From Candidatus Nitrosocaldus sp. (GTDB lineage Archaea; Thermoproteota; Nitrososphaeria; Nitrososphaerales; Nitrosocaldaceae), in contig JANWZS010000003.1 in the NCBI GenBank assembly GCA_025054855.1, forward strand, positions 1 through 64,000: 64,000 nt of DNA. Reading direction: 5' to 3'. The translations under genes and the position numbers were made by a program. Shown piece by piece: positions 43,025 through 44,522 of this stretch (its first letter is position 1; each line of letters opens with the position of its first letter). The notes under the pieces are model-generated. The model made no database searches. It was not told the origin of the DNA and saw only the letters and a list, made by a program, of their open reading frames with translations.

Positions 43025-43167
43025 GTATTCCTAGTTCACATCCGTCCAGCACGGTACCATTCCCCAGCATCTCCACTGCACACTCATCCAACATCCTTCT
43101 AATTTTCTGCATATCTATCCATTATTATGTGAGAAATCATATATTCTTCTATCATTCATCATAGACC

Positions 43168-43239
43168 ATGAGCGTATATCACTGCAACATGTATGGGGAT
43201 GGGGTGTGTGACTGTGGATGCTGCGCTGGCGATGGGTGA
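43168..43239 (+). CDS. 23-residue Cys-rich mini-ORF
   Basis: Encodes M-S-V-Y-H-C-N-M-Y-G-D-G-V-C-D-C-G-C-C and A-G-D-G: five cysteines plus one His in 23 residues, a likely metal-binding peptide. A TATA box CATATATTC (about 43139-43147) lies 25 nt before its ATG, the window's standard leaderless spacing. Its TGA overlaps the ATG (43239) of the membrane protein in TGATG, so translation would pass directly from one to the other. It could be a metal-sensing leader peptide or a tiny partner. Confidence 0.5.
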   Translation: MSVYHCNMYGDGVCDCGCCAGDG

Positions 43240-43832
43240 TGAGCATGAGTGAGCCACTCTACGCATTCTCCATAGCAAGGACTATGTATGCAGGGGCAGT
43301 GGCTGGGTTCATAGCGAGCTGGTATGTTACAGTGCTCCTGATGGCAAGTGAGTACGAGATAGGCTTCCCCATGGGCACGTTCTACACCGTCATAGGTGAG
43401 GTTGCAGGGTTCAGGGGTGCAGATGCGCTCTACGCAGGTCTGGCACTGCACATACTGACAAGCACTGTAGTAGGTTCGCTCTCTGCACTCCTCCTGGTCA
43501 CCATACTGAGGCACTGGAGGCTCAGGGGCAAGGTATGCATAGTCTGCTCGTACAGGGCCGCTGGGGTTGGGCTCATACTGGGCTTCATAATATGGCTTGT
43601 ACTGTTCCTGCCAGTCACGTTCCTTATCGTCGAGCCATCGCTCGCATCCAGGGCTGCTGGCGATCTGAGCATGCTCTACTCCACATCAGTATCCGTATCT
43701 GCACTCCTGAGCATGGTCTGGGTTATAACCGTAAGCGCACTCCCGTACCACCTCGGCTATGGTGCCACACTGGGCTACCTGATGAGCAGATTGGTCAGGC
43801 GCATGGCCATAACTGGCAGGGCGAATATTTAA
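43239..43832 (+). CDS. Multi-pass membrane protein, unknown
   Basis: 197 residues with about four membrane helices (near 15-35, 60-85, 108-130 and 148-170). Cys pair in G-K-V-C-I-V-C-S near residue 97 on a loop. No recognised family. The frame is also open upstream (ATG 43218), but the ATG at 43239 overlaps the stop of the Cys-rich mini-ORF and gives a clean N-terminus. The next gene's TATA overlaps its last codons. A metal-related role is only suggested by the mini-ORF. Confidence 0.65.
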   Translation: MSMSEPLYAFSIARTMYAGAVAGFIASWYVTVLLMASEYEIGFPMGTFYTVIGEVAGFRGADALYAGLALHILTSTVVGSLSALLLVTILRHWRLRGKVCIVCSYRAAGVGLILGFIIWLVLFLPVTFLIVEPSLASRAAGDLSMLYSTSVSVSALLSMVWVITVSALPYHLGYGATLGYLMSRLVRRMAITGRANI

Positions 43833-43840
43833 ATACCTAG

Positions 43841-43868
43841 TTAGGTGAGACTAATTAGGTGTGACTAA
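43841..43868. promoter_or_regulatory. Tandem 14-bp repeats at the TFB-like promoter
   Basis: TTAGGTGAGACTAA (43841-43854) and TTAGGTGTGACTAA (43855-43868) are direct repeats differing at one base, each with TTAG/CTAA half-palindromes. They lie just downstream of the TATA box (ATTTAAATA, about 43826-43834) and over the expected transcription start. Likely operator for a dimeric repressor binding twice; the regulator is unknown. Confidence 0.55.
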
Positions 43869-43871
43869 CTG

Positions 43872-44522
43872 ATGCATATCCAGATCAGCGATAAGATTGA
43901 CGATCTGTTCACGCAGGTACTGCAGGATACCCTTGGGGTGGATGATGGTGTAGATCTGGTTGGTGATGGTAGGTACGCCTCTATAGTATCCAATGCGATG
44001 AGGCTCTACATCGACCTGAGCAGGGGGTACAGGATAAGGAGCAAGAAGACCATCATATGCACAGCGATATATGCAGCGCTCAGACTCGCAGGGTATGCTA
44101 TAACCGTCAACGCATTTGCAGATAGGGTAGGGATGGATGTGAGGAGGCTAGCAGTCTGCTACAGGGCGATGCAGAGGGTTCTAGGGTTGACCGTACCAAA
44201 CCCATCCCTCAATGCGTACATAGATGAGGTTGTGAGATGGCTGGAGGAGGATGGTGGTGCACAGGATAGGTACACAGATGTAGATACTGCAAGGCTGAAG
44301 GAGGAGTCGTATAGGTTGGCTGGTTATGTGAATAGCATGATGAATGGCAGGGGCTTCAACCCTGCTGGCATGGCAGCTGCCATAGTTTACCTCTCGCTGG
44401 ATGAGAGGTGTAGGAAGGCTGTTGGTATCAGGAATCTGGCAAGGATCACTGGTGTGAGCGTTGTCACTGTGAAGAAGAGGATAGAGGACCTCAAGGCACT
44501 GCTGAATGGTCATGTGCAGTAA
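43872..44522 (+). CDS. TFB-like protein without N-terminal zinc ribbon
   Basis: 216 residues with two cyclin-like repeats of archaeal TFB/eukaryotic TFIIB: first about 45-110 (Y-R-I-R-S-K-K-T-I-I-C-T-A-I-Y-A-A-L-R), second about 140-210 (N-P-A-G-M-A-A-A-I-V-Y-L-S-L, then I-T-G-V-S-V-V-T-V-K-K-R, the DNA-contacting HTH). The zinc ribbon and B-finger that recruit RNA polymerase are absent, and the repeats are divergent. It could compete at promoters or act as a specialised factor. Tandem repeats in its promoter suggest tight control. Confidence 0.75.
   Translation: MHIQISDKIDDLFTQVLQDTLGVDDGVDLVGDGRYASIVSNAMRLYIDLSRGYRIRSKKTIICTAIYAALRLAGYAITVNAFADRVGMDVRRLAVCYRAMQRVLGLTVPNPSLNAYIDEVVRWLEEDGGAQDRYTDVDTARLKEESYRLAGYVNSMMNGRGFNPAGMAAAIVYLSLDERCRKAVGIRNLARITGVSVVTVKKRIEDLKALLNGHVQ

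Follow-up and report, generated by a model that had tools for sequence, protein, structure and literature searches.

Described systems closest to the locus

Fungal short copper metallothioneins are about 25 amino acids (aa) long, with a high fraction of Cys residues and with CxC and CC motifs. Leader peptides that act by stop-start coupling form a general class in which a short ORF ends on the start of the next gene. Among the archaea, the haloarchaeal C(P)XCG zinc-finger u-proteins HVO_0758 and HVO_2753 are very small proteins with two C(P)XCG motifs separated by a linker, HVO_0758 being 56 aa long (PMC10716476). The copper-responsive genes of N. viennensis include an upregulated gene for a copper-storage protein with 18 Cys (PMC7785015); the sections of that article available to us do not mention a peptide of the kind described below, and no description of one was found in the parts of the PMC literature searched.

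The locus analyzed here lies in a stretch of 64,000 nucleotides of Candidatus Nitrosocaldus sp. (contig JANWZS010000003.1), a member of a hot-spring genus of ammonia-oxidizing archaea; the stretch is referred to below as the window. It contains a mini-ORF of 23 codons that belongs to a family of peptides of about 21 to 40 aa, as measured from likely start codons. The family resembles the short copper metallothioneins in length, Cys fraction and CxC and CC motifs, but differs from them in having four invariant Cys, a conserved aromatic residue and Gly, and a fixed [DE]G terminus. As far as the available part of their description goes, the C(P)XCG u-proteins share with the family a very small size and four Cys, which in the u-proteins are expected to coordinate a single zinc, and the peptides fall within the size and Cys limits of that group (less than 70 aa, four conserved Cys). 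However, the family has the arrangement C-x7-C-x-C-G-x-C, a lone Cys and a CxCGxC cluster with only one CGxC in place of two C(P)XCG motifs; it belongs to another phylum and matches no described family. The mini-ORF is like the coupled leader peptides in that its stop overlaps the next gene's start, but its relatives elsewhere are free-standing genes that are not always in cis to another gene.

The mini-ORF and its conservation in Nitrosocaldus

The coding features of the locus are as follows.
43168..43239, + strand: mini-ORF of 23 aa, MSVYHCNMYGDGVCDCGCCAGDG
43235..43240, + strand: GGTGAT, Shine-Dalgarno-like; it overlaps the mini-ORF stop, and 4 nt separate it from the conserved start, ATG 43245
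43239..43832, + strand: membrane protein gene, 197 aa from ATG 43239; genus-wide, the conserved start is ATG 43245

The ATG at 43168 opens a frame of 23 codons that closes with TGA at 43237-43239, and its translation agrees with the preliminary description of the window in giving five Cys (C6, C14, C16, C18 and C19) and one His (H5). The same description had the mini-ORF stop overlapping the start of the membrane gene. In the window this is so: the ATG at 43239 overlaps the TGA and opens a frame of 197 residues that extends to 43832, stop included. The overlap calls for two qualifications: the start that is conserved across Nitrosocaldus aligns with the second ATG, at 43245, and in one Nitrosocaldus genome (G005) stop and start do not overlap (TGATAGTCATG). 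A Shine-Dalgarno-like GGTGAT covers the last mini-ORF codons; the window has GGCGAT and an overlapping GGTGAT. A pattern search of the window's own assembly and of one other (G001) did not find the anti-Shine-Dalgarno tail patterns of 16S rRNA.

Promoter spacing, Cys density and stop-start overlap together had been considered hard to explain by chance, but Cys density does not by itself show this. Using a filter for ORFs of 15-40 aa with at least 5 Cys and 20% Cys, two ORFs were selected in the 64 kb window, of which the second lies out of frame within the upstream enzyme gene; 12 first-order Markov-resampled windows gave from 0 to 3 such ORFs each. The mini-ORF is thus judged to be real because of its conservation across genomes and not because of its Cys composition. 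A search with the membrane protein matched 30 of 101 genomes, six of which (the window's own and five others) belong to the one genus, and in these five the protein is 80-81% identical to the window copy. The mini-ORF is directly upstream of the membrane gene in all six Nitrosocaldus genomes, as the preliminary description had proposed to check among orthologues. Pooled over the 15 pairs of these genomes, pN/pS is 0.23; variable sites number 6, 4 and 12 at codon positions 1, 2 and 3, respectively, so that the third position holds 12 of 22 (P = 0.011). The sole difference in length among the six mini-ORFs is one whole codon, and their peptides have 5-6 Cys in 22-23 residues, with CxC, CxxC and CC motifs. 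Judged by this pattern of conservation, the mini-ORF is almost certainly a copy of a real, conserved protein-coding gene family.

The peptide family beyond Nitrosocaldus

A first profile, made from the six Nitrosocaldus mini-ORFs only, was run on 300 genomes. At E <= 1 it matched 56 of them, many by short chance matches, but beyond the genus its best matches, with per-genome E values of 3.8e-5, 4.2e-4 and 8.5e-4, were to similarly built short ORFs, for example MKLLYTCENYGERTCDCGYCCQDG. A profile of 17 sequences matched 31 of 400 relatives at E <= 0.01, namely the six Nitrosocaldus genomes and 25 genomes of one other family (f7), which we take to be probably the Nitrososphaeraceae, of the same order and with several AmoC-like copies per genome; the sister genus (G006) had no match in this search. 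With a profile of 35 sequences, 25 of 70 f7 genomes matched (32 places in all, including a partial one in G142), as did 18 of the 37 good genomes within f7; the remaining 45 of the 70 had no match, and many of those genomes are incomplete. In all 32 places a stop codon directly follows the match, and the stop is absent from the profile itself. A search of 398 genomes of the phylum gave, besides the strong hits, four weak matches (E 0.005-0.03), which were taken as chance because no stop follows three of them, and both the first Cys and the terminal Gly are missing from the fourth.

The 35 aligned rows show no variation at C6, C14, C16, G17, C19 or the terminal Gly. Position 9 is mostly F or Y, and position 18 varies among Y, F, C and D. 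The common pattern, with single exceptions, is C-x3-[FY]-[GA]-x3-C-x-C-G-[YF]-C-x2-[DE]-G-stop, from which the window copy departs by its Cys at position 18. The copies fall into four or more sequence types, and their number per genome reaches two or three in some cases. One copy, in genome G082 (C1:1640563-1640631, minus strand), is at an unannotated locus. Several type II copies (L083-L087) seem to start at TTG (TTG-ATT-AAA-GAA...), which gives peptides of 25 residues. None of the 35 members matched a Pfam or NCBIfam model at E <= 1, metallothionein models included, and in PHROGs a single family was matched by two members, at best with E = 0.48.

Three other origins were considered and rejected. 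A viral source was set aside, as viral contigs had no relative of the peptide and the 901-bp region was absent from phages; a plasmid source, as one peptide of the second family was not found in plasmids; and a modified peptide (RiPP), as no conserved gene for a modification enzyme was recognized in the clustered neighborhoods, seven of which were inspected by eye.

Two observations concern the surroundings of the f7 copies. Of the 8 mini-ORF copies in f7 genomes assembled to chromosome level, 6 are within 9 kb of a ferredoxin gene that is present in 2-6 copies (L111, L113-L116, L118 and L121; 17-kb regions). The combined P of about 5e-7 is post hoc and comes from loci that are partly orthologous; this proximity is not seen in Nitrosocaldus and is not counted as evidence here. 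The ferredoxin resembles the zinc-containing archaeal ferredoxin. In genome G085, which has seven matches to AmoC-like sequences, genes that we recognized by eye, and presume to be AmoC-like, are within 2.5 kb of both mini-ORF copies (L115, +1319; L116, +2463).

Promoter and upstream region

Two elements precede the mini-ORF.
43108..43130, + strand: conserved promoter region upstream, roughly -60 to -38 relative to the mini-ORF, limits approximate
43137..43144, + strand: TATA-like octamer TCATATAT, first base at -31 relative to the mini-ORF ATG, a spacing typical of leaderless genes

A TATA box at the leaderless distance had been noted in the preliminary description, and the octamer TCATATAT indeed begins 31 nt before the ATG at 43168. 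An octamer matching at 7 of 8 positions or better was found at -34 to -27 in 20 of 22 family copies tested, which are not 22 independent cases because many are close relatives. Elsewhere in the 100 nt upstream, counted in bins of 8 nt, such boxes occur in 0 to 8 of the 22 copies, apart from the overlapping bin at -36 to -29. This count covers 22 of 38 copies; the 16 left out are mostly of types II-IV, with other or ambiguous starts, and mostly have weaker boxes (5-7 of 8). From the position of the box, the family probably consists of independently transcribed, leaderless micropeptide genes with a promoter-like box of their own. A simple gene call gave 49 genes in the window, of which 7 have a box of 7/8 or better at -36 to -27 and 11 an SD-like pentamer, none having both; these counts fit the presence of leaderless and SD-led genes side by side.

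When the upstream regions of the six Nitrosocaldus genomes were aligned, mean pairwise identity was 0.80-0.87 at 43108-43130, whereas the blocks at -31 and -21 gave 0.58-0.69. The conservation of 43108-43130, where the relatives have a TATCCATTTTTATAC-like sequence, roughly equals that of the mini-ORF, and a regulator may have its site there.

The membrane protein

Three conserved elements were located in the membrane protein gene.
43449..43451, + strand: codon of His71
43536..43547, + strand: codons of the CxxC loop (Cys100-Cys103), Nitrosocaldus only
43749..43751, + strand: codon of His171

Both His residues are conserved in all 25 aligned homologues. The CxxC (C100, C103) is present in all six Nitrosocaldus proteins and in none of the 19 others. 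It is flanked by RHWRLRGK before and YR after, which by the positive-inside rule suggests that the loop is cytosolic. Pfam DUF6789 is weakly similar over most of the length of the protein (E = 0.0061; 17.1 bits, below the curated cut-off of 27.1), and 7 of the 25 homologues match it at E <= 0.01; the Nitrosocaldus protein differs from this family by its extra CxxC loop. The protein had been described as having four helices. An AlphaFold2 model built from five sequences does have four long helices but adds two short ones, and its mean pLDDT of 53.7 is too poor for use.

A full-sensitivity profile search, covering up to 1.5 kb on either side, found no mini-ORF at the 25 loci of other homologues (L002, L008-L031). 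Membrane genes without a Cys-rich mini-ORF, which the preliminary description gave as a refutation of its reading, are therefore found among distant homologues but not within the genus. The best reading of these distributions is that the peptide family is not tied to the membrane gene and that the pairing is a feature at the level of the genus.

The neighboring gene

The next gene, at 43872-44522, encodes a TFIIB-like factor with cyclin-like repeats only: its product aligns to the TFB model, which has 312 positions, over 162-307, and the N-terminal zinc-ribbon half seems to be missing. The promoter of this gene, at 43832-43870, has a near-repeat, TTAGGTGAGACTAA / TTAGGTGTGACTAA, after a TTTAAATA box, which is possibly an operator. 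Two other genomes (G001 and G003) have similar repeats with palindromic CTAATTAG cores.

Possible functions of the peptide

On balance, we favor a family of metal-binding micropeptides that in Nitrosocaldus has become paired with a membrane gene. In such a mechanism, the four invariant Cys would form a four-thiolate site for a single soft metal, whether Zn(II), Fe(II) or Cu(I), or for a small cluster, and once this was bound the peptide would fold up as a tiny knuckle that ends in the fixed [DE]G tail. The peptide would then act by docking on a larger protein or by handing metal over to it; in Nitrosocaldus this partner would probably be the co-encoded membrane protein, through its cytosolic CxxC loop. 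Binding of a metal or cluster by the four Cys is the firmer part of the proposal and we regard it as probable; the site is one that we infer from Cys conservation alone, because no solved structure matches the family profile at E <= 10. That aromatic, Gly and C-terminal [DE]G positions are conserved as well suggests a defined fold or a surface for docking, and not a plain buffer. A functional partnership with the Nitrosocaldus membrane protein is more tentative, and we would not count on it: docking or metal transfer is plausible there because the CxxC loop is confined to the genus, and the appearance of CxxC and gene pairing together in one lineage is suggestive, but it is a single evolutionary event and the paired arrangement could be a genus-specific accident. 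Thus the metal-linked Cys peptide of the preliminary description agrees with the metal-ligand-like conservation, while the more specific role of metallochaperone for the membrane protein is possible only within Nitrosocaldus, where the two are paired in all six genomes and the CxxC is present. The results give no sign of the metal export, or of the metal sensing, that the same description suggested.

The alternative that survives best is a metallothionein-like buffer, which would store or detoxify Cu(I) or Zn(II) in these copper-demanding ammonia oxidizers with no specific partner. The CxC, CxxC and CC motifs, the 5-6 Cys of the short Nitrosocaldus peptides and the several copies in some genomes would all suit such a role. 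However, only four Cys are invariant, no member matches a Pfam or NCBIfam model, and the conservation of aromatic, Gly and C-terminal [DE]G residues exceeds the needs of a buffer, which makes this explanation unlikely.

The preliminary description had also raised a metal-sensing leader peptide. Here, translation of the mini-ORF, responding to Cys supply or to metal or redox state, would control the membrane protein via stop-start coupling. Tight spacing in all six Nitrosocaldus genomes, Cys codons close to the end of the mini-ORF and the SD-like sequence across its last codons are what such control would use, but residues other than Cys are also conserved (Gly17, the terminal Gly and mostly [FY]9), and the overlap is missing from G005. 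In f7 the relatives stand alone: a same-strand ORF of at least 70 aa starts within 200 nt in only 8 of the 32 places and overlaps in none. Folding of the RNA of the mini-ORF and downstream start gave no unusual stability in the six genomes (z = +0.2 to +1.2), and an attenuator was rejected on the grounds of this ordinary structure and the free-standing relatives. Because of the free-standing relatives, the family's own box and the RNA z-scores, a leader role would be at most a secondary use in Nitrosocaldus, and as the primary explanation we consider it improbable.

A redox peptide, in which the CG[YF]C pair is a dithiol-disulfide site and the other Cys a resolving pair, is a little more doubtful still. 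CGYC resembles the active-site motifs of thioredoxin-fold enzymes and the Nitrosocaldus membrane partner has a CxxC of its own, but 23 residues cannot form a thioredoxin fold, position 18 is variable, and C6 and C14 are as invariant as the pair. Finally, a chance ORF within the promoter region of the membrane gene has almost nothing to recommend it: Cys-rich mini-ORFs do arise randomly at 0-3 per 64 kb, so that Cys density alone is insufficient to reject it, but conservation in all six genomes and a second family with a fixed stop position do so.

Returning to the metal-binding micropeptides, a broader proposal is that they form an undescribed class of metal carriers or switches of about 21-40 residues, specific to Nitrosocaldus and another family of ammonia-oxidizing archaea, which dock by the [DE]G tail on partners. 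In Nitrosocaldus one such partner would be the membrane protein, with its four helices, a CxxC loop to receive the metal and two His within the membrane. We regard this as speculative, with a modest chance of being correct in full; if true, the Nitrosocaldus pair would work together in metal delivery, and its carrier would be one of the smallest on record. A gene of 23 codons is below the usual limits of annotation, and for this reason proteomic and transcriptomic studies would easily overlook such genes. Ammonia-oxidizing archaea are abundant and metal-hungry, and their metal trafficking is poorly known; if the peptide does bind metal, few dedicated metalloproteins would be smaller.
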